Shown in pieces: positions 33,537-59,295 of a DNA stretch of 64,000 nt. This stretch comes from Algimonas porphyrae (GTDB taxonomy: Bacteria > Pseudomonadota > Alphaproteobacteria > Caulobacterales > Maricaulaceae). Position 1 is the stretch's first letter. Each line of letters begins with the position of its first letter. Both the position numbers and the translations under genes were made by a program. The notes under the pieces are model-generated. The model had not been told where the DNA came from, made no database searches, and worked only from the letters and a program-made list of their open reading frames with translations. The stretch is taken from positions 2,730,001-2,794,000 of the forward strand of contig NZ_CP163424.1 in assembly GCF_041429795.1 (NCBI RefSeq). The letters are read 5' to 3'.

Positions 33537-34126
33537 GACGGATCATACCCTCCATTGGCGAGGAATTCACGCTCCTCTGCCGTGCTGTCCCGGCCGAGAA
33601 CATCGTTGCGGTGCGGGAATCGGCCAAACCGTTCGATCACGTCGCGATGGGCAATGGCGTGGCGCAGCGTACTACCGCCATCATCCAGCCGCGTGCCCGA
33701 CAATTCGACACAGCGGTTTTGCGCGATCAGGTTTTCGGCATGCATGAGAGGCATGTAGACGAAACTGCGCCGAGCGATTGGAATCTCCAGATCCCAACCC
33801 CGATCAACCATGTCGTCTGCCGATGTCAGGGCCAGAGGGTCCCATGCAAAGGCAGCCGGTGAGTCACGGTACATGTTGCGCGGAAACTGATCGAGCGTGA
33901 TAATCTCCGCCAGTTGCGACTCTGGGTCCGCCCGCCAGTTCAACCCGGTCACGGCAACCGGATCAGCGAGTATCGACGCGGTGCGTTCGAACCGGCGGCG
34001 GATTTCGTCATCAAACGCCTTCGTCGCGTTGAACCAGTATGTCTGGTTATCCGGCGCGAACCAGAAGTCGAGCACATCCTGTGGCGTAACCGCCGTCTTC
34101 CCGACCCGTTTCGATTCCAGCCTCAC
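33533..34126 (-). CDS. DUF924 family protein
   Basis: The 197-residue protein (GTG start) has the DUF924 pattern: QDVLDFWFAPDNQTYWF, ITLDQFPRNMYRDSPAAFAW, and FVYMPLMHAENL with a closing RFPHRNDVLGR. The family has a TPR-like helical fold with a conserved His cluster, without a known reaction. The GTG overlaps the acyl-CoA synthetase stop as GTGA, and its stop overlaps the DJ-1 gene. Confidence 0.88.
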   Translation of the reverse strand: MRLESKRVGKTAVTPQDVLDFWFAPDNQTYWFNATKAFDDEIRRRFERTASILADPVAVTGLNWRADPESQLAEIITLDQFPRNMYRDSPAAFAWDPLALTSADDMVDRGWDLEIPIARRSFVYMPLMHAENLIAQNRCVELSGTRLDDGGSTLRHAIAHRDVIERFGRFPHRNDVLGRDSTAEEREFLANGGYDPS

Positions 34127-35925
34127 AAGCGGATCGTTCCATTATTGATCTTCTCGAACGTTTCCACATCGACATGCGCATACGCCTTCGTCTGCGGATT
34201 GCAGAAATAGACGGGTTCGCTGATCCGGTCTGGATCAAAGCCCGCTTTGACGAGATTGGTCTTCTTGAACTTGAAGGTCGAGGTCGTCTCCGACTCGCTG
34301 GACAGGCGCAGAAAGACGGGCCGCGCATAATGCGGCAATTCGCGGTCCAGATAGTCTTTCAGCTCGGCCAGATCTGGCGGTGTCTCCGCGACCAGCGCGG
34401 CCATGCCGGCCCGCCCATCATAGCCTGGCACTTCCACACCGTAGACATTGGCCTGCGTGATCCCGGGGAACCCAGACAGCACGCCTGCGACTTCGTTGGT
34501 CGCCACATTTTCGGCCTTCCAGCGGAACGTATCGCCGACACGGTCGATAAAGTAGAAGTAGCCCTGAGCGTCGCGTTTCATCAGGTCGCCCGTCCGGAAC
34601 CAGGCATCGCCCGGCTTGAAAACATTGCGCAGGATTTTCTTCTGCGTCGCTTCCTTGGTTTCATAACCGTCGAAGCGGAACCGTGGATCATCGGTACGGA
34701 TTTCACCGATCACTTCACCGACTTCATCATCATCGGCCCGCAATGCAAAGCCATCCGAACCGCGCGGGTTTTCGCCAGTCTCGACATCATACCGAATAAT
34801 GTCGATGTTGAACTTCCACTTCAGATAGGACGGCACACGCCCGACCGCGCCGACCCGGCTATCCAGATTGATCAGGCTGACATTGCCTTCGGTCGCGCCG
34901 TAAAATTCGATCACGTGTGGGATATTGAACCGCGCTACGAAGCTTTCCCAGACTTCCGGACGCAGTCCATTGCCCATGATCCACTGGATTTTGTGTTCGC
35001 GTTCCAGCGGGTGTGGCGGCGTGGACAGCAGGAACCGGCACAGTTCACCGACATAGGTGAACATGGTGGCTTCGTACTTCACGGCTTCGTCCCAGAAGGT
35101 GGACGCGCTGAATTTGGGGCGCACGATGCAGGCTCCGCCATTGGAAATGGCCGCGCCCATTCCGACAAGGCCGCCCGTGGCGTGATAGAGGGGTAGCACC
35201 ATCATCATCCGGTCTTTTGGACCGGCTTTTGCGCCAGCACCGAGACCCCGCATATAGTTCTGGGCCCGCACATGCGTCACCTTGGCCGCTTTGGGCAGAC
35301 CGGTTGTTCCGGAGGTGAACATCTTCATACCCTGCCCGCCTGCTGTCAGCCCATCGCGGACGGATTTGGCGGGCCGGTTCGGCACGATGTCGCTGAGCGG
35401 TTCGTCAAAGGACCTCATCTTGCGCTTGTGGCCCTTGGGAACCTCGCCATAAGCGGCCCATTCAGTCAGACCGTCCTCGAGATGTTCGCGTGCGGTCTTC
35501 CAGCTATCGATCAGATCGACATCGACAATGACGTGGGCGGCTTCACTGATATTGACACAATGGGCCAGCGCACTTCCCGCAAGCTGGAAATTGATCAGGG
35601 CCGGGATCACACCGCGCTTGGTCAGTCCGAACCAAAGCGCGACATATTCCAAGCGATTGCGCACGAACACCGCCACCGTGTCGTTTTTCTGAATGTCATT
35701 GGCCACACACCAGCCAGCGACACGATTGGCATATTCTTCCATCTGATCGTAGGTCCACTGCCGCTCATCCTCGATGAAGGCGATATTGGGACCGAACGCA
35801 TCGACGCGCATTTCCAGCTCGTCCGCCAGCAGGTGACCGGATTCCGCATCGACATCCTTCACGGACCGCAACATCCGCAACAGGCCTCCCAGATATCCAG
35901 CTTCGCGTTTCAATGTAGAGAGCAT
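34123..35925 (-). CDS. Long-chain acyl-CoA synthetase of the FATP/FadD type
   Basis: ATG 35925 gives 600 residues; longer frames run through the preceding terminator. AMP-binding motif FTSGTTGLPKAAKVTHV, the GATEGNVSLINLD segment, and FRTGDLMKRDAQGYFYF-IDRVGDTFRWKAENVATNE identify an adenylate-forming enzyme of the FATP (SLC27-like) branch. It activates fatty acids to acyl-CoA with ATP. It is first in a closely overlapping operon and lies next to the PHA genes, so its product could feed beta-oxidation and PHA synthesis. Confidence 0.9.
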   Translation of the reverse strand: MLSTLKREAGYLGGLLRMLRSVKDVDAESGHLLADELEMRVDAFGPNIAFIEDERQWTYDQMEEYANRVAGWCVANDIQKNDTVAVFVRNRLEYVALWFGLTKRGVIPALINFQLAGSALAHCVNISEAAHVIVDVDLIDSWKTAREHLEDGLTEWAAYGEVPKGHKRKMRSFDEPLSDIVPNRPAKSVRDGLTAGGQGMKMFTSGTTGLPKAAKVTHVRAQNYMRGLGAGAKAGPKDRMMMVLPLYHATGGLVGMGAAISNGGACIVRPKFSASTFWDEAVKYEATMFTYVGELCRFLLSTPPHPLEREHKIQWIMGNGLRPEVWESFVARFNIPHVIEFYGATEGNVSLINLDSRVGAVGRVPSYLKWKFNIDIIRYDVETGENPRGSDGFALRADDDEVGEVIGEIRTDDPRFRFDGYETKEATQKKILRNVFKPGDAWFRTGDLMKRDAQGYFYFIDRVGDTFRWKAENVATNEVAGVLSGFPGITQANVYGVEVPGYDGRAGMAALVAETPPDLAELKDYLDRELPHYARPVFLRLSSESETTSTFKFKKTNLVKAGFDPDRISEPVYFCNPQTKAYAHVDVETFEKINNGTIRL

Positions 35926-35980
35926 GCGTAATCTTCGTTTTTGTGAGGGTCGCGCGTGCATAGGCCAAGATGAGGCAAAG

Positions 35981-36138: not shown

Positions 36139-37545
36139 TTACGGGAGTGATGCGCCCAGTTTGAACCCGTCAATATAGTTAGGCGGCAGATAGAGTGGGC
36201 GCTCATCATAGACGGTCGTCTGGTCGATCCGCTGATCATAGCTAACATCCCGTATGAACAGGGTCAGACCGTCAAAACGGGCGGCCTCCAACCGGTCATA
36301 GGGAATGAACAGGGTCAGCCTGTCCTCGCGTGCACAATCCCGGACCGACGAAACCACAACGCCGTCGCGCGGCCGATCGCTCGGAAACATGTCATAGCGC
36401 TCCGGTACGGACGTGCTGGGTTCGCGACTTGGTCTGGGCTTGCTGACAGGCGGCGCGGGCCGAGGTTTAGCGGGCTGCGGCGTTACGCGCGGACTGGGGA
36501 CACGCGGATTGGACGTGCGGGGACTGGGAATGCGGGGCGTCGTCACGCGGGGGCTTGGCGCACGCGGGCTGGGCACAGTGACGCGGTCTCTGCGGTCTCG
36601 GTCGCGCCGCGACGAACGGTCGCTGCGGCCTGGAACGAGCGTCTCGGGCAGGACATCGCGGGATCGATCCGTCCGGTCGCTACGCCGGGGTCGGCGAGGC
36701 CGATCCGGCTGTACATCACGCGTGCGATCCTTGGCCCCGGCGGGTCGGCCATTGATATAATGATCGACGCGGCTGCGCGGCAGGTCCTGTCCGGGAACGA
36801 TCCGGGCGGTTCCCCGCGGTACGAAATTATTGGATGGCACCTGAGTCCGGTCCCACCGCCGGGTCGGACGCCGGCGCTCGCGCCGCTCCGGGCGGTAACG
36901 CCGCGGATGCCCGGTATGATGGGGGCCCTGGTAACGCCTGTGCCAGCCATCGGAGCGCCCGCCCCAATAGGAGAAATCAAACAGGCTGTGACCGAAATAG
37001 GTCGGACGCGGGCGGTAAAGCCCACCATAGCCCGGATAATAGTAACGATCATAATGATAGACGGTTTCCGTCACGCGAGACGAGCATTCCAGCTCGCGAC
37101 TATCGCTCAGCACGATGGGAACCGGATCCCCGTTCAGGAACACGGCGTCGCGCGTGCGACCGATATCCCTGTCGCCATAATCCGTATAGTATAGTTGCAC
37201 CTCCAGCAGGACACCGTCCTGCAGGCGTATACCATTCAGATCACGGACACCGTCCGTCGTGCGCAAATAGGCCTGTCCGGCCAAGTCCTCATCCTGTTCA
37301 AACGGATCGAATGTCGGGCCGACCGCCTCGGGCGCTCCGGTCCGGCGATTATATTCGGTCGTCACATCCTGCGCGATGATTTCCGGCGACAGGTCTGGGA
37401 AAGCAGGTCCACGCTGATAGGTCGCACTGGATCCGGACGAGCCGGACAGGCTGGATCCGGCCTGATAGCTGGTTTGACCGATCGCCTGTGTGCCCCAGCC
37501 GGAGAGTGTCACGGAAGAAAGCAGAAGGATCGCAAATCGGGTCAT
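36139..37545 (-). CDS. Secreted Pro/Arg-rich repeat protein of unknown function
   Basis: ATG 37545 gives a 468-residue protein with a signal peptide (ILLLSSVTLSGWGTQAIGQ). After a short acidic globular segment (residues ~45-145) comes a Tyr/Arg/Gly-rich part (HYDRYYYPGYGGLYRPRPTY), then an Arg/Asp-rich stretch, then short repeats of the type PRxPSPRxTxPR (residues ~350-400), and a final 80-residue folded-looking domain with Cys (SVRDCAREDRLTLFIPYDRL). The very basic repeat tract would bind polyanions. No family recognised. Its neighbours are PHA genes, but a secreted role argues against it being a granule protein. Confidence 0.7.
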   Translation of the reverse strand: MTRFAILLLSSVTLSGWGTQAIGQTSYQAGSSLSGSSGSSATYQRGPAFPDLSPEIIAQDVTTEYNRRTGAPEAVGPTFDPFEQDEDLAGQAYLRTTDGVRDLNGIRLQDGVLLEVQLYYTDYGDRDIGRTRDAVFLNGDPVPIVLSDSRELECSSRVTETVYHYDRYYYPGYGGLYRPRPTYFGHSLFDFSYWGGRSDGWHRRYQGPHHTGHPRRYRPERRERRRPTRRWDRTQVPSNNFVPRGTARIVPGQDLPRSRVDHYINGRPAGAKDRTRDVQPDRPRRPRRSDRTDRSRDVLPETLVPGRSDRSSRRDRDRRDRVTVPSPRAPSPRVTTPRIPSPRTSNPRVPSPRVTPQPAKPRPAPPVSKPRPSREPSTSVPERYDMFPSDRPRDGVVVSSVRDCAREDRLTLFIPYDRLEAARFDGLTLFIRDVSYDQRIDQTTVYDERPLYLPPNYIDGFKLGASLP

Positions 37546-37603
37546 GCCTGTCCCATAGCGAACTGCCCTTGAGGTCTGAGTGAGCGCAGCGTTCATCTGA
37601 CGT

Positions 37604-38257
37604 TCATCGCAAGCTGTCCGGCTCGGCTTCGCGCAACAGGTCGGCAAAGCCTTCCCCATGCGCCCAGTAAGGCGCGATCATGGACAGGCTTTGATAGACA
37701 CCGCGGTCGATCAGGGCCTTCGTGGGGGCGTTTTCAGGTCCCGGGCCTTCGCGGAGCTGGTGATATTGCAGCCAGAACGTAAAATGCTGTGACAGCCGGG
37801 CAGACAGCGCCGCCTTTTCGCCCTCGCCAAAATGCAGATGCCCGCCCTCTTCGAGATCGGACAGAAGCGAGAAGGCGGTTCGTTCCTTCAGCGCCAGCAA
37901 ACGGGAAAAGGGCATGGCCAGTTCCGGCACCCGATCGATCAGCGTTGCCGGGTTACGGTAGAAAAATCGGAAGTCCCATATCTCCTCGAAGATGATGTAG
38001 AGATAAACCCAGTTATCCTGCAGGGCGAGCGGTTCATTGATCGGCGCCGATAACACCTGACGCAATTCGATTTCGAAATCCGCAAACAGCTCGCGGATGA
38101 TCGGGTCCTTGCCTTTGTAATGGTAATAGAGATTACCGGGTGAAATCCCGATCACAGAGGCCAGATCGACAGAGCTGACAGCGTGCTCGCCCTCATTATT
38201 GAAGAGCGCCTGCGCCGTCCGCAGGATCGTATCCTTGGTCTTGGAGCGTTCCGTCAC
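37604..38257 (-). CDS. phaD: TetR-family regulator, PhaD-like
   Basis: GTG start at 38257; 217 residues. The N-terminal HTH is LASVIGISPGNLYYHYKGKD, close to the GISPGNLYYHF of Pseudomonas PhaD, and the rest is helical (LFADFEIELRQVL; WLQYHQLREG). PhaD controls expression of mcl-PHA genes in Pseudomonas by sensing an acyl-CoA-type ligand. Its place at the end of a phasin-phaC-phaZ-phaF-like run supports the same role. Symbol is by homology and context. Confidence 0.72.
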   Translation of the reverse strand: MTERSKTKDTILRTAQALFNNEGEHAVSSVDLASVIGISPGNLYYHYKGKDPIIRELFADFEIELRQVLSAPINEPLALQDNWVYLYIIFEEIWDFRFFYRNPATLIDRVPELAMPFSRLLALKERTAFSLLSDLEEGGHLHFGEGEKAALSARLSQHFTFWLQYHQLREGPGPENAPTKALIDRGVYQSLSMIAPYWAHGEGFADLLREAEPDSLR

Positions 38258-38302
38258 GCGCCCAAACTAGCACAAATCACAATAATTGCGTGGCCTTGTC
38301 GT

Positions 38303-38863
38303 CTATTTTTTTGACGTCGTTGTTTTTGCCGCTGCTTTCTTGGTCGCCGGTTTCTTGACTGCAGTTTTCTTGGCTGTGGTTTTCTTGGCGGTCTTCTTCG
38401 GAGCAGCCTTCTTGGCAGGCGCTTTGCGCGTGCGGGTCGTGGTTGTCTTTGTCGGGGTAGCGCGCTTGGTGGTGGCGGTCTGTTTGATCAGCAGGTCGAG
38501 CTTGGCTTCCATCGCCGCCAGACGCGCTTCCAGCGCATCGACCCGGTCCTCCTGAGAGCCGGAAAGCCGGTCCCGCATCGCCTGAATGCGTTCGTCAATA
38601 GCCAGGTTGGACTGGAGTTCCGAGCCGAGACCTGACGCTTTCCCGGCCAGTTCCGCCCCCTTGATCTTGGCCGCCGTCTCTAGCTGTTCGCCTTTTTCCG
38701 CGAGTGTTTCGAAGACATCGGATGTCTTGCCCGACAACTCGCCGGAAAGCCCGCGGATCGCGTCACGCCCGTCTTCGAAAGCCTTGCCATAGGCCCCGAT
38801 GCCCGCCAGCCAGATTCGCCGGGCCATGTCGGTCGTTTTCTTGCTCTGCTTGTCATCGGCCAT
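38303..38863 (-). CDS. phaF: PhaF-like phasin with histone-like Lys/Ala tail
   Basis: The 186-residue protein begins with a phasin-type amphipathic helix (MARRIWLAGIGAYGKAFEDG; SGKTSDVFETLAEKGEQLE), then a coiled-coil (RVDALEARLAAMEAKLDLLI), then a 60-residue tail of KKAAPKKTAKKTTAKKT type repeats. In Pseudomonas PhaF the N-terminal part binds PHA granules and the histone-like tail binds DNA, distributing granules at cell division. GGAG is 7 bases before the ATG. Confidence 0.85.
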   Translation of the reverse strand: MADDKQSKKTTDMARRIWLAGIGAYGKAFEDGRDAIRGLSGELSGKTSDVFETLAEKGEQLETAAKIKGAELAGKASGLGSELQSNLAIDERIQAMRDRLSGSQEDRVDALEARLAAMEAKLDLLIKQTATTKRATPTKTTTTRTRKAPAKKAAPKKTAKKTTAKKTAVKKPATKKAAAKTTTSKK

Positions 38864-38893
38864 GATCGGACTCCGTTGCTGGTATGGGAACTG

Positions 38894-39802
38894 TTAAGCC
38901 TTGGCGCGAAACCTGTCATTGGCATGTACGAAGCTGGCGGCCACGGAGGGCACTTCGACAGGCTCGGCATGCGGAATCGGCATTTCAGGTTCGCCGAAGA
39001 AATCACGGATAATGTCGACCGTTTCCTCGCGCCGCGTCAGCAGGAAGAGATGGCCCGCGCCTTCGATCACTTCGAGTCGGGAACGGCGATAGATCGCATC
39101 CAGAATACGGCCATTGATGACCGGCACGATGTGATCATTGCCGCCCATGATGATGAGCGTCCGCGCGCGAATACGCCGCGCAAACGGCAAGGAAGACCAG
39201 CCCATCATCGCACCGAGCTGGAACAGATAGCCCTTGATGGAAGGCGGCACCATATTGACGGAAAACTCATCCGACTTGCTGGCCGCATCGCCATAGAGCG
39301 TCTCGAAATTCTTTTTCAGGAAGTCCCGGTCCATATAGCGGCGCGGGCTGGCCATCTTGGACAGCGCCTTCGGATTGCCGGGTACCATGGTCCAGCCGGG
39401 CGAGGTTGCGCACAGGATCAGGCGGCGCGTCATCGACTTGTTCTGCCACGCAAATTGCTGCGCCGGTCCGCCGCCCCAGGATACGCCCAGCACATCGACA
39501 CGGTGATAGCCATTATCGCGCAGGATCTGTTTTGCCGCCTTCGCCACCCACCAAGGGCGGTAGGGAATGGTCGGATCGGGCGATCCACCGACACCCGGCA
39601 TATCGAAAGTGATGATGTCCCGACCCGTGAATGTGTCGGCGAATAGCTGGGCAATTTCGAGATTGGCCCCGATGCCGTTGAAGAAGAGCAGCGGCGTGCG
39701 CTTGCCAAAACCCTTGTCGACACCAGTCCAGATGGCTGTGCGCAGCTGTTGATTGCCGATCTTCGAAAAGAAGATCCGAGGCAGATTCTGCTGGAAACTC
39801 AT
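38894..39802 (-). CDS. phaZ: Intracellular medium-chain PHA depolymerase
   Basis: A 302-residue alpha/beta hydrolase close to Pseudomonas PhaZ: lipase-like box GVSWGGGPAQQFAW, the segment MVPGNPKALSKMASPRRYMD, and acid/base in GGNDHIVPV and GAGHLFLLT. It breaks stored mcl-PHA into hydroxyacids in the cytoplasm. It follows phaC by 207 bases, with a terminator between, so it may have its own promoter. Confidence 0.88.
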   Translation of the reverse strand: MSFQQNLPRIFFSKIGNQQLRTAIWTGVDKGFGKRTPLLFFNGIGANLEIAQLFADTFTGRDIITFDMPGVGGSPDPTIPYRPWWVAKAAKQILRDNGYHRVDVLGVSWGGGPAQQFAWQNKSMTRRLILCATSPGWTMVPGNPKALSKMASPRRYMDRDFLKKNFETLYGDAASKSDEFSVNMVPPSIKGYLFQLGAMMGWSSLPFARRIRARTLIIMGGNDHIVPVINGRILDAIYRRSRLEVIEGAGHLFLLTRREETVDIIRDFFGEPEMPIPHAEPVEVPSVAASFVHANDRFRAKA

Positions 39803-39950
39803 GAAACGTCTTTCCCGGCGTAAACGCCGAATCCCCTGACAGTCCCTCGAGTCTAGCGCCCGGATCTATCATTCAGTGACGTCAGTAATGGGTTCACGCA
39901 GGTTTGCAAAAGCTTAAATCGCAGTTCCCCACATATGCATTGCCGCATGC

Positions 39951-39976
39951 AAAAACCCCGGCGCGAGGCCGGGGTT
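39951..39976 (-). terminator. Terminator of phaC
   Basis: On the minus strand AACCCCGGC-CTCGC-GCCGGGGTT is followed by a T run. The stem is 9 bp and perfect. It lies about 34 bases past the phaC stop and before phaZ. Confidence 0.88.
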
Positions 39977-40009
39977 GATCGGATCGGACGGATAAGTGCC
40001 CCGCCCGGA

Positions 40010-41689
40010 TCAGGTGAAGACATACTCGCCTGGGGCTTTGGATATGGGCGGATGGGCCTTGTTGCCGAGAGATTTCGGGGCTGCCTTCATCTCGCCGGAA
40101 CGCTCGCCCAGCCAGTCCTTCCAGCGCAGCCACCAGCTTTCGCCGTAACTGTCTGCGCCTTCCAGCCAGCGATCGGCACGCGGTGGAAAGTCCTCATTGA
40201 CGAAATATTGCGCTTTCGGATTACCGGGCGGGTTCAGCAGTGACTGGATATGGCCCGAATTGGACAGCACGAAGGTCGAATCGCCGCCGAACAGGCGCAC
40301 ATTGCGGTAGCAGGCCTTCCACGGCGTAATGTGATCCGTGATGCCGGCGACCATGAAATTGTCCTGCGTGACGGCCGACAGATCGATGATATGATCCATG
40401 AAGACTTCCGTCTTGTCAGGGCGGAAGGACCGCTTCTGAAAGATATCCAGATAGTCAGAATGAAGCTGCGCCGGCAGGTTGGTACTATCATTGTTCCAGA
40501 ACAGAACGTCGAATGGCGGCGGGTTTTCCCCAAGCAGATAGTTATTGACGACATAGTTCCAGATCAGATCGTTCGGACGCATCCAGGCAAAGGACCGCGC
40601 CAGTTCGTCGCCGGCCAGAATACCCTTTTTCTTGGAATGGCGTCGCGCCGCCTCGATCGCCGTATCGGTCACGAACAGACCGATTTCGGAATCGGATTTC
40701 TTGCCGTCCAGTACTGAGACCATCAGGGTAAAGGCGTTAATACGGTCATCGCCTCGCGCCGCCAGTTCCGATAGCATCAGCGCCATGGTCGTGCCGCCGG
40801 AACAGGCGCCGGATACGTTGATTCGCTTGGTCCGGGTGATCTTGCGGACGGCGTCCGTCGCGACGATCAGCTCCTCGACATATTCTTCCAGCCCCCAATG
40901 GGAATGCTGACGGCTCGGATTGCGCCAGGACACGGCGAAAACCTGAAATCCGGCTTTCAGAAGGAAGCGGATCATGGACTTGTTCGGCTCCAGATCGACC
41001 GCATAATATTTGTTGATCTGTGGCGGTATGATCATCAGCGGCGTCTTATGGACGTCATCGGTCTGGGGCTTGTACTGGATCAGCTCCAGCATCTCGGTCT
41101 TGTAGACCACAGCCCCCGGCGTATTGGCGACATTCTCGCCTACCTTGAACGGGCGGCCATCGACCTGGCTCGGCATGCCGCCATTCTTGCGCAGATCTTC
41201 ATAGGCGTTTTTCAGACCGTTCACGAGCGACATGCCGCCAGTCTCGTACAGCTTCTTCATGGCGGCCGGGTTGCCGATCAGCGAGTTGGTCGGCGCGAGC
41301 GTGTCCCCGATCAGATCGGTCACGAATTTGGCGCGCGCCTTGTCGGCCGGATGCATCTGGGAGTCGTTGATCCAGCCATCCAGTTCACGCCGCATGGCCA
41401 GCCAGCTTTGCAGTCCGCGTTTGTAGATCGGGTTCTTCGACCAGGTTTCGTCTTGGAACCGGCGGTCCTTGGGATGGGGAGACAACTCGCTATCACCCTT
41501 GACGATGTCGAACAGTTCCTTGCCGTAAGCGCCAACATGCTTGGCAAATGGTTTGGGCTGACGCGCAATATACCCCGCCATTATACCCAGGGATTTGACC
41601 ACTTCGGACCGGCGGAAGCCAACGAGACTGTTGACCGCAGTGGTGTTTTCAGCCGCCTGTTTTGCGACTTTTTCTTTTTTGATGGCCAT
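40010..41689 (-). CDS. phaC: Class II poly(3-hydroxyalkanoate) synthase
   Basis: Polymerises (R)-3-hydroxyacyl-CoA into PHA. The product is 559 residues, the size typical of Pseudomonas PhaC1. GACSGG holds catalytic Cys, with Asp in GITDHITPW and His in SNSGHIQSLLNPPGNPKA. QINKYYAVDLEPNKSMIRF, SWRNPSRQHSHWGLEEY and RPNDLIWNYVVNNYLLG are class II (mcl) type signs rather than the class I (scl) form usual in alphaproteobacteria. AT-rich spacer and a strong terminator separate it from the upstream phasin gene. Substrate range of C6-C14 is inferred from the class. Confidence 0.93.
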   Translation of the reverse strand: MAIKKEKVAKQAAENTTAVNSLVGFRRSEVVKSLGIMAGYIARQPKPFAKHVGAYGKELFDIVKGDSELSPHPKDRRFQDETWSKNPIYKRGLQSWLAMRRELDGWINDSQMHPADKARAKFVTDLIGDTLAPTNSLIGNPAAMKKLYETGGMSLVNGLKNAYEDLRKNGGMPSQVDGRPFKVGENVANTPGAVVYKTEMLELIQYKPQTDDVHKTPLMIIPPQINKYYAVDLEPNKSMIRFLLKAGFQVFAVSWRNPSRQHSHWGLEEYVEELIVATDAVRKITRTKRINVSGACSGGTTMALMLSELAARGDDRINAFTLMVSVLDGKKSDSEIGLFVTDTAIEAARRHSKKKGILAGDELARSFAWMRPNDLIWNYVVNNYLLGENPPPFDVLFWNNDSTNLPAQLHSDYLDIFQKRSFRPDKTEVFMDHIIDLSAVTQDNFMVAGITDHITPWKACYRNVRLFGGDSTFVLSNSGHIQSLLNPPGNPKAQYFVNEDFPPRADRWLEGADSYGESWWLRWKDWLGERSGEMKAAPKSLGNKAHPPISKAPGEYVFT

Positions 41690-41806
41690 TAAAGCGTCTC
41701 TCCCAATAATCCCGATAATCCGTTCTTAGCTTGAGATAACGGGCGAGACAAACAAGCGTTGCCAATCTTCATCAGATTCGCGTCGACCCAGCCACGCATC
41801 GCGCAT

Positions 41807-41839
41807 AAAAAACGGCCCATGCAGGGGGTGCATGGGCCG
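41807..41839 (-). terminator. Terminator of the phasin gene upstream of phaC
   Basis: On the minus strand CGGCCCATGCA and TGCATGGGCCG form a perfect 11-bp stem around CCCCC, followed by six T residues, about 90 bases past the phasin stop. Confidence 0.92.
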
Positions 41840-41928
41840 CAATATGACGTCGGACAGGTCGCATTTCCTAGGGAAATGGGGAGAGAGGAAGCGACGACCC
41901 GCCTCGGTCGGAGGACTTGAAGTCGGCC

Positions 41929-42357
41929 TTAAGCGGCTTTCTTCTCAGTCGTCGTTTCGGTTTTCACCGTCTTGCGTGGTGCAGCTGCTTTCTTGGAAAG
42001 CGCAGCAATCTTCTTGTTCAGAGCTGCAACTTCGGCTTCCAGCTCTTCGACACGGTTGTCACGGCCACCGAAAGGAACGACGTTCTTGACGGTTTCCATG
42101 CTGTTTTCGACCATGTCGGTCGCTTTGGCGCGTGTGTCTTTGGTCAGCTCGAGGCCTTGAGCTTCCAGCTTTTCGCCTTTTTTGACGAGCGTTTCAAACA
42201 GCTCACCGGATGCGGCTTTCAGCTGGTCGGCGCGGAATTGAGCGCGCTCATAGGCCAGACCGTACAGGCCGACATAAGCAAGCGAAGCTTTGCGCAGGTT
42301 GGACACGTCAGCTTTTTTGGCTGTTTTGGTTTTCTTGGATGTTTTGGCTTTGGCCAT
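41929..42357 (-). CDS. PhaI-like granule-associated phasin
   Basis: A 142-residue Ala/Lys-rich protein. A basic start is followed by an amphipathic helix with LAYVGLYGLAYERAQFRADQ and SGELFETLVKKGEKLE, matching the phasin N-terminal domain also seen in the PhaF-like protein, and a heptad coiled-coil (VEELEAEVAALNKKIAALSK). It lacks a long histone-like tail, as does Pseudomonas PhaI. AGGA lies 8 bases before the ATG. Coats PHA granules. Shares its fold and repeats with the phasin at 38303. Confidence 0.85.
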   Translation of the reverse strand: MAKAKTSKKTKTAKKADVSNLRKASLAYVGLYGLAYERAQFRADQLKAASGELFETLVKKGEKLEAQGLELTKDTRAKATDMVENSMETVKNVVPFGGRDNRVEELEAEVAALNKKIAALSKKAAAPRKTVKTETTTEKKAA

Positions 42358-42469
42358 GATGGTGATCCTTTCTAGGGTCTCTATTCGTTCGGGCCGCAGC
42401 GATCATTCGCGCGGCTTCGTTCATGAGACCTAGATAGGGCGAAAGATTAGAAAGCGCGTCCTAAACGCA

Positions 42470-58197: not shown

Positions 58198-59223
58198 CTA
58201 TGTGACCTGTTTTCCATCCGTTTGAAAGACGTCTTTGCCGATATGCTCGTCATACCAGGTCGGCCCCAGCAAGGACTGGAAGAAGCCATTATGCCCGCCA
58301 TGGTCGTGAATGATCATGCGTGAGCCGGGAGACAGGGTCAGCCGCTGCACGTCGCGCTCCGGAATCATACCATCATCACGCGCGGTGATGATGTCTACCG
58401 GCACGGGAATGCGCGCCAGATCGGATGGATCCACGCGGTAGGCGTTGAAGTAATCCTCCATCCGCGCATATTTCGAATAAGCAGGCAGCAGCTTTTCCGT
58501 AATGCCCAGCACCCGGCGTTCGCGCAGCATGTCATTGAAGTCATAACGGTCCGGGAACAGGGACTGTTTGCGCGCCAGGCTGGTCTTCATCTTCTTCAGG
58601 AAATAGCGCCGATAGAGCGGGTTCGCGTCAACCAGCGGGGCCGCGCCCCACGGATCCACGACCGGGCTGATCGCATAGATGCGTTGCAGTCTGTCGATGG
58701 TCAGATCACGCAGCGAGCGGGCGATGCGCAGAGCGAAATTCCCGCCCAGTGAGAAGCCGACAATATAGACGGGCGCGCCCTCCGATAGCCGGGCGGCCTG
58801 CTGCACGGCATTGTAAACCTCGTTGAAACGCGTGGAAAAGAACAGCCCCTTGTTCAGGTCGTGACTGCCGCCATGGTCGCGGTAGTTCAGGCGGAAGACA
58901 CTGGCCCCGCGCTGATACATATAGCGACCGCAGCTGACGACATAGGTGCTGTCCTGCGAGCCTTCCCAGCCATGCAGAAAGATGAATAGCGCCCGATTAT
59001 CGGGATTGCGCGAATGGCTGCCCTTCAACCGGACCCCGTCTTCGCAATCGAGAATGACGTCTTCGGCCGCGTCGATCATGGGATTGGGACCCCGCTTGCG
59101 GAAGGACTGGCTGGCAAGCGCCGTCTGGATGATACCCGGGCGCAGCCAGAAGGGTGGGTCGAACGGTTCGACCCGTCGCTCCGCGCCTGACGGCAGCCCT
59201 GCATTCATGTCGATGATCTGCAT
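58198..59223 (-). CDS. Alpha/beta hydrolase of the YheT/ABHD group
   Basis: A 341-residue cytoplasmic hydrolase. HGWEGSQDSTYV, RLNYRDHGGSHDLNKGLFFS, VGFSLGGNFALRIA (nucleophile Ser) and the end ARDDGMIPERD with HDHGGHNGFFQSLLGPTWYD (acid and base) match the YheT-like family. The N-terminal FWLRPGIIQTALASQSFRKR is the conserved opening. Substrate unknown. It is upstream of DUF1499 in an operon. Confidence 0.88.
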   Translation of the reverse strand: MQIIDMNAGLPSGAERRVEPFDPPFWLRPGIIQTALASQSFRKRGPNPMIDAAEDVILDCEDGVRLKGSHSRNPDNRALFIFLHGWEGSQDSTYVVSCGRYMYQRGASVFRLNYRDHGGSHDLNKGLFFSTRFNEVYNAVQQAARLSEGAPVYIVGFSLGGNFALRIARSLRDLTIDRLQRIYAISPVVDPWGAAPLVDANPLYRRYFLKKMKTSLARKQSLFPDRYDFNDMLRERRVLGITEKLLPAYSKYARMEDYFNAYRVDPSDLARIPVPVDIITARDDGMIPERDVQRLTLSPGSRMIIHDHGGHNGFFQSLLGPTWYDEHIGKDVFQTDGKQVT

Positions 59224-59295
59224 AGGCGGACAGTTTAGCGTCCTGCGGACCTTAGCACCAGATGTCCGCCACAGGCGCTAGAATGATCGACCTAA

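Follow-up and report, generated by a model that had tools for sequence, protein, structure and literature searches.

A class II-like polyhydroxyalkanoate gene cluster with its own regulator in Algimonas porphyrae, whose lineage appears to have given up the polyhydroxybutyrate system

Does an alphaproteobacterium that carries what look like the storage-polymer genes of Pseudomonas hold them beside the short-chain system of its relatives, or in place of it? The question is raised by a stretch of 64,000 nucleotides from Algimonas porphyrae (contig NZ_CP163424.1, positions 2,730,001 to 2,794,000; hereafter, the window), in which an initial annotation, made from the letters alone, described genes for a class II-like polyhydroxyalkanoate (PHA) synthase (PhaC), a depolymerase (PhaZ), PhaF-like and PhaI-like phasins and a PhaD-like regulator on one strand, that is, the gene set of the Pseudomonas medium-chain-length (mcl) PHA loci in another order and without a second phaC. 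According to PMC5944434, class II mcl-PHA is usually regarded as a Pseudomonas trait. Our results indicate that such synthases are common in the order to which this organism belongs, and that one lineage appears to have given up poly(3-hydroxybutyrate) (PHB) for the class II-like cluster.

Gene content and synthase class of the cluster

The open reading frames (ORFs) of the window bear out the described gene set, with profile support for each, in the order phaI-phaC-phaZ-phaF-phaD on the minus strand:

41929-42357, minus strand: phaI-like phasin, 142 amino acids (aa); PF05597 25.0 bits, slightly below the gathering score of 28.8
40010-41689, minus strand: phaC, class II-like PHA synthase, 559 aa; TIGR01839 722 bits
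38894-39802, minus strand: phaZ, intracellular mcl-type PHA depolymerase family, 302 aa; TIGR02240 195 bits; GVSWGG lipase box
38303-38863, minus strand: phaF-like phasin, 186 aa; PF05597 40.5 bits, at or above the gathering score of 28.8
37604-38257, minus strand: phaD-like TetR-type regulator, 217 aa; PF13972 92.3 bits and PF00440 31.8 bits, both over their thresholds

We consider it quite probable that these five genes form a self-contained class II-like PHA granule module, composed of the synthase PhaC, the depolymerase PhaZ, the phasins PhaI and PhaF, the latter with a Lys/Ala/Thr-rich, histone-H1-like tail, and the TetR-type regulator PhaD, in which the gene set for synthesis and breakdown of the polymer is probably complete and self-regulated. 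Chance or an annotation artefact as the source of the cluster was ruled out, as its genes are kept together in many genomes, and so was a recent import from Pseudomonas, given a PhaC identity of 46-52%, separate clades and an ordinary G+C content, which for the cluster lies inside the range of the window.

The window PhaC belongs to the class II clade. In a quick tree of 100 PhaC sequences, the class II sequences (59 alphaproteobacterial and 10 from Pseudomonas) were split from 31 class I sequences at a fully supported branch (SH-like approximate likelihood ratio test, 100), and the window PhaC fell in a fully supported group of 14; smaller and more careful trees placed it with class II, including Pseudomonas PhaC1 and PhaC2, and apart from class I with support of 100/100. 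The grouping with class I synthases that the initial annotation had named as the counter-case was thus not seen. Profile scores point the same way, with 722 bits for the class II model TIGR01839 (cut-off 855.4) and 516 for the class I model TIGR01838 (cut-off 622.65), although both fall short of their cut-offs. The catalytic triad is Cys296, Asp452 and His480 in the numbering of the window protein. Pseudomonas positions 477, 481 and 484, numbered here as in PMC3815930 and PMC4636328, correspond to S478, Q482 and L485 of the window protein. At position 481, which bears on substrate acceptance according to PMC3815930, the window enzyme has the Gln of Pseudomonas, whereas all 31 class I sequences have Ala; at 484, which PMC4636328 likewise connects to substrate acceptance, it has the Leu of Pseudomonas, and the class I sequences have Val (16), Ile (14) or Ala (1). 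Ser at 477 is also found in 30 of the 31 class I sequences, and class II is set apart by 481 and 484 only.

Distribution of the cluster and absence of the PHB system

We searched samples of 150 genomes of the order, 337 of the class, 398 of the phylum and 137 of the family, in which families and genera carry codes (f1 is the family and g1 the genus of the window; g8 and g10 are further genera). A class II-like PhaC was found in 48 of the 150 order genomes, spread over families f1-f5; these score 650-735 bits with TIGR01839, the next match scores 441, and none reaches the cut-off. The same holds for the class sample, where no genome passes the cut-off and, besides the window, eight score 625-706 bits (one of which belongs to the window's own order), one scores 548 and the others 490 or less, while the 13 genomes over the cut-off in the phylum sample all belong to one family, f188, which is Pseudomonas. 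The cluster is therefore no oddity in this order, contrary to the initial reading. Named holders include a Hellea metagenome-assembled genome (MAG), with 88% PhaC identity, Robiginitomaculum and Marinicaulis MAGs and Ca. Phycosocius bacilliformis, and further ones are Aquidulcibacter paucihalophilus, Tepidicaulis marinus and genomes of the Erythrobacter group. An mcl-type PhaZ (at least 190 bits) accompanies the synthase in all 48 genomes, against one of the other 102 (G119), for a total of 49; TIGR02240 is by far the top-scoring family for the window PhaZ, and its cut-off of 250.6 is reached in none of the 150. The locus in G119 (L141, 6801-9692) is a divergent phaC-phaZ pair with 34-35% identity to the window, where the synthase match spans two overlapping frames. 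Searches of the open literature listed no report of this cluster for the genera concerned; phaC and phaZ are mentioned in a related prosthecate isolate, with neither class nor gene order given in the part of PMC13029026 concerned, and Caulobacterales are named among PHA-gene carriers in PMC9676036.

The source genome is one closed contig of 3,169,281 bases, 99.88% complete. Profile searches of this genome returned a single PHA synthase match, the phaC of the window, and no class I PhaC, PhaR, PHB depolymerase, nor PhaB over its cut-off; reductase homologues below the PhaB cut-off persist. This was not a peculiarity of one genome. In the order sample, a class II-like PhaC is the sole synthase match in 10 genomes, namely six of g1 (the window's included), one of g10 (G148), two of g8 (G073 and G078) and one of g2 (G004). 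PhaR is absent from 11 of the 150 genomes, the same 10 and G023, the PHB depolymerase from 11 as well, the same 10 and G110, and PhaB over its cut-off from nine of the 10 (G098 keeps it) and from one other, G014. The other 38 genomes with a class II-like PhaC all have a further synthase match, and because 37 of these 38 also have PhaR, the class II-like and class I systems can evidently coexist. The family sample gave a similar picture: a full-length class II-like PhaC is present in 58 of 137 genomes, 48 of these 58 have no class I match, and PhaR is found in none of the 48 versus 61 of the 65 class I holders. Six genomes have synthase fragments, with PhaR in none, and 18 of the 137 are without any synthase match. 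Six of the 10 genomes of genus g10, a member of family f1, with assemblies of 1.4-2.4 Mb, are without a PHA synthase match, and part of this genus may have lost PHA storage entirely.

That the missing PHB genes are an artefact of incomplete assemblies or over-strict profiles is, in our judgment, very improbable. Several family members are indeed incomplete MAGs, and G133 and G896 have PhaR with no synthase match; however, the window genome is closed, and PhaR and the PHB depolymerase (the latter searched for in the order sample) are absent even at an E value of 0.001 in six of six genus members of the order sample; at that E value, PhaR is also missing from all 18 members of the genus in the family sample. 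Because the PHB-less genomes share kinship, which Fisher tests of co-absence ignore, the 10 genomes represent about two loss events and not ten. Most sampled relatives of the window's lineage retain the PHB genes that it lacks, and its storage polymer is therefore probably different from theirs. In sum, the initial annotation was right in gene content and class and wrong as to rarity, and it overlooked that the PHB system is absent, as well as the regulatory element discussed below.

Gene order, operator-like element and descent

Two arrangements prevail among the loci that we compared. In type A, phaI-phaC-phaZ-phaF-phaD lie on one strand, with phaI placed ahead of phaC; the window's genus has this arrangement, as do further genera of the family and the five genomes fetched from f5. 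In type B, found in f2, f3, f4, f8 and part of genus g2, phaD faces away from phaC-phaZ, mostly with a phasin beyond. At the G004-like g2 loci (L092 and L268), phaC-phaZ stand alone, with no phaD or phasin match there, and the idea of two cassette swaps was narrowed for this reason. Outside the order, 13 loci (L111-L123) were compared at an E value of 1e-4, which divergent phaD or phasin genes may escape: in 11, phaC and phaZ are accompanied by no phaD match, one has phaC only and one is of type B. The idea that gene order marks the type A clade was dropped, given that Tepidicaulis marinus (L185) has the phaI-C-Z-F-D order on one strand and a PhaC outside that clade. Two MAGs labelled Acidobacteria or Ca. 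Sulfopaludibacter (L200 and L202) have a PhaC with 56% identity to that of the window; a type B cluster is also present in L200, and the labels may be wrong.

Two further features lie between or ahead of the genes:

42447-42464, minus strand: candidate PhaD operator, an 18-bp imperfect palindrome 5' of phaI; exact match to the type A consensus, 29.8 bits
41807-41840, minus strand: hairpin resembling an intrinsic terminator, separating phaI from phaC; stem of 12 pairs followed by a T run

The window copy of the operator-like element reads TTAGGACGCGCTTTCTAA, and a -10-like stretch, CCTATCT, follows on the same strand 8 bases beyond it; a scan with the sigma-70 consensus gave no match at the phaI promoter. 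The element stands ahead of phaI in all 27 type A loci examined, with no mismatch to the consensus in 20, one to three in six, and recovery by matrix score alone in one, L098 (20.6 bits). As sites with up to three mismatches are no more frequent in the window than chance predicts (6 against 4.81 expected), the weight is on the exact match and the fixed place. With a matrix built from 22 type A loci, the window and its sisters excluded, the window element scores 29.8 bits, the next site 13.4, and the maximum in 12 Markov draws was 16.8. Of 30 other loci, 21 have a phaD match and nine do not; a site scoring 12 bits or more, a threshold set after the scores were seen, occurs in 16 of the former and in none of the latter. 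The matrix also finds the element in Pseudomonas: over 36 of 42 loci, and taking the three best sites per locus, a site faces phaI in 35 and phaC1 in 34, and the best score is at least 12 in 34 of 36, whereas 72 Markov draws reached 13.4 at most, with a 95% point of 9.7. The original paper on the PhaD operator is reportedly that of de Eugenio 2010, and the Pseudomonas element may already be in print. The window PhaD has 34% identity to the gene at the phaD position of Pseudomonas, and the stretch ISPGNLYYH, likely its recognition helix, is identical in the window and in P. aeruginosa PA7. In P. putida, PhaD binds and activates the phaC1 and phaI promoters, more strongly on octanoate, as reported in PMC7204398 and PMC9049629. 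Because the element is shared with Pseudomonas, and ISPGNLYYH with P. aeruginosa PA7, the window PhaD likely acts through the phaI element in the manner reported for Pseudomonas.

The second-best site in the window (59278-59295, minus strand, two mismatches), with its 13.4 bits, is within the null range; it lies just ahead of an alpha/beta hydrolase gene (58198-59223) and is a possible further PhaD target. As for the hairpin, the window has 11 terminator-like sites against 5.8 expected, of which 41807-41840 has the longest stem. A motif search ahead of phaC returned, as shared words, only the end of phaI and the T-rich hairpin.

How the cluster came to its present distribution was addressed by comparing PhaC with one species marker, OdhA, a single gene that fails to recover family f1 whole. 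In the OdhA tree, f5 lies outside f1-f4 (f1-f4 clade, 100/100) and g1, g8 and g10 fall together, whereas in the PhaC tree f5 joins g1, g8 and g10 in a single clade (99/99; 96/95 with more sequences). OdhA rejects a grouping of f5 with g1, g8 and g10 (approximately unbiased test, p-AU 0.0026), PhaC rooted with class I rejects an f1-f4 clade without f5 (p-AU 0.001), and G004 and G014, of one genus, hold different PhaC lineages (p-AU 0.0004). By this one marker, then, the cluster likely moved between families. A wider PhaC set with long branches strongly rejects the OdhA grouping as well, in a test that also shuts out sequences from other orders. Whether the cluster is instead ancient and vertically inherited in the order or class, with the apparent transfer a tree error and only the PHB loss specific to lineages, seems to us doubtful on these tests. 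It would fit with the occurrence of class II-like PhaC in each of the coded families f1-f5 of the order, with the PhaC test on sequences of the order and Pseudomonas only, in which the f1-f4 clade is not rejected (p-AU 0.12), with the larger PhaC tree, where eight type A sequences of the window's family form a clade (100/99) beside f5, and with the gene order of T. marinus, which may be ancestral; that OdhA is one gene, with f1 broken up, also favors it. The initial annotation had proposed that a widespread and vertically inherited cluster would speak against its reading; widespread it certainly is, and vertical descent is doubtful. An alphaproteobacterial origin of class II, with Pseudomonas as the recipient, was considered and not decided upon: a single alphaproteobacterial class II clade is compatible with the tree (p-AU 0.377, with the long sequences L038, L040 and L081 excluded), and PMC5944434 contains a hint in the same direction.

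The most far-reaching scenario that we consider is that a cassette with its own regulator and operator moved between Caulobacterales families and wholly displaced the PHB system in the ancestor of g1, g8 and g10, a lineage of marine prosthecate bacteria that would thereby have changed its sole storage polyester from short-chain to medium-chain PHA, with a separate second loss of PHB in the G004-like g2 genomes; taken as a whole, we regard this scenario as evenly poised between true and false.

Polymer, proposed working and known systems

From sequence, we infer not only the nature of the polymer but also the binding of PhaD to the element, the operon structure, and the transfer and its direction. 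In the working that we propose, fatty acids would be activated and enter beta-oxidation, from which (R)-3-hydroxyacyl-CoAs would be drawn by an (R)-specific enoyl-CoA hydratase encoded elsewhere and polymerized by PhaC; the resulting granules would be coated by PhaI and PhaF, with PhaF assisting in their sharing at division, and PhaZ would release the monomers again. Through binding of the 18-bp element in the phaI promoter, PhaD would turn the cluster on as fatty acids arrive, and with partial read-through the hairpin may keep phasin output above synthase output. The genome has four MaoC-type hydratases over the cut-off. For one of them, of 144 aa, which no NCBIfam model over its cut-off names, the two best matches among solved structures are 5cpg and 1iq6, both (R)-specific enoyl-CoA hydratases, the latter presumably the PhaJ of Aeromonas caviae, and this protein could link beta-oxidation to PhaC.

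The polymer would be medium-chain-length, judging from Gln at 481 and Leu at 484, the retention of an mcl-type PhaZ and the disappearance of the PHB genes. Several points weigh against this and against the cluster acting as one unit. Neither PhaC nor PhaZ reaches its curated cut-off, here or anywhere in the 150 order genomes. Among the 58 other alphaproteobacterial class II-like sequences, Ile or Val occurs at 484 in 11 and Cys at 325 in 43 (seven of 13 type A sequences and 36 of 45 others, where the window, like Pseudomonas, has Ser), and substrate specificity may well vary within the group. The PhaC2 of Cupriavidus pinatubonensis, in addition, groups with class II yet makes short-chain PHA only, according to PMC4636328. 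None of the ten best window sites of the matrix scan lies in the gap from phaI to phaC. Lastly, the nearest relatives have a break that separates phaC from phaZ: the cluster of G024 is split by about 182 kb between phaI-phaC and phaZ-phaF-phaD-synthetase on one contig, and in G867 phaC-phaI retains the odhBA side and phaZ does not follow; given these two splits, a single operon would appear to be dispensable. The contiguous clusters of the Hellea MAG and of further members of the genus point to the unbroken order as the older state. In G024, a site of 12.8 bits (L262, 7749), a suggestive score near the top of the null, is found some 200 bases 5' of the relocated phaZ.

The Cupriavidus enzyme, itself from a cluster with a single synthase, is the strongest reason to ask if a synthase that is class II by descent could here make a short-chain or mixed short- and medium-chain product, so that a PHB-like polymer was kept with a changed enzyme. 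Also compatible with this are the sub-cut-off reductases similar to PhaB, and the Asp of the window enzyme at position 130, where E130D is among the substitutions used to engineer Pseudomonas PhaC1 toward a lactate/3-hydroxybutyrate copolymer (PMC3815930); that same Asp is also found in 6 of 8 Pseudomonas sequences, as well as in all alphaproteobacterial class II sequences but one and in 29 of 31 class I sequences. We believe a short-chain or mixed product to be rather unlikely, as the window PhaC retains Gln at 481 and Leu at 484, unlike class I, and differs at 484 from the C. pinatubonensis enzyme, which has Ile, while PhaR, the PHB depolymerase and PhaB over its cut-off are gone and the mcl-type PhaZ is retained.

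Two neighbors of the cluster had also been pointed out initially:

34126-35931, minus strand: long-chain acyl-CoA synthetase; NF006134 701.8 bits, over its cut-off
36139-37659: secreted-looking ORF rich in Pro and Arg, adjoining the cluster

Both do adjoin the cluster, but they were rejected as parts of it, not being conserved in the compared loci. The synthetase, a possible supply enzyme, stands next to phaD in G024 only, directly after it. The Pro/Arg-rich ORF gave no family match in a profile search from 37596 and no match at an E value of 1e-4 in any compared locus, and G024 has no counterpart of it at that position. As listed, the ORF overlaps phaD at its start; a start near 37545, which would provide a signal peptide, looks likelier.

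A class II-like PhaC occurs in about one third of the sampled genomes of the order, in many of them alongside the same operator-like element and a regulator of the same kind, and the published closed genome of the cultured type strain, Algimonas porphyrae LMG 26424 (PMC11556061), makes our claim testable. The common element offers a handle for finding the PhaD regulon across two classes, and enzymes that vary naturally at positions 325 and 484 can serve to test what determines chain-length specificity.

Among known systems, the class I PHB system of most sampled Caulobacterales (class I PhaC, PhaR, PhaB and PHB depolymerase) shares its purpose and enzyme superfamily with the cluster, but relies on a different regulator and depolymerase family, has Ala instead of Gln at 481, and is absent from the window genome. 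The C. pinatubonensis PhaC2 is alike in being grouped with class II and the sole synthase of its cluster, and unlike in being clustered with precursor genes, in its residue at 484 and in its proven short-chain specificity (all from PMC4636328). Type B clusters in other families of the order, among them those of Ca. Phycosocius bacilliformis, Aquidulcibacter and Hyphomonas and Henriciella MAGs, have the phaC-phaZ pair, phaD and a phasin, and most of the loci examined also have the operator-like element, although with phaD facing away; type B and f5 genomes, taken together, make up the 38 with a further synthase match, nearly all of which have PhaR, unlike the window genome. With regard to the phaC1ZC2D and phaIF operons of Pseudomonas, two synthases flank phaZ there and a single one is present here, phaIF lies apart on the opposite strand whereas the window has all five genes on one strand, and the element found there also ahead of phaC1 is not seen directly ahead of the window phaC, whose product, at 46-52% identity, scores below the curated cut-offs. 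The two systems nonetheless share the same gene families, a synthase ahead of the depolymerase, a PhaD-type regulator, the operator-like element ahead of phaI, and the class II residues at 481 and 484.

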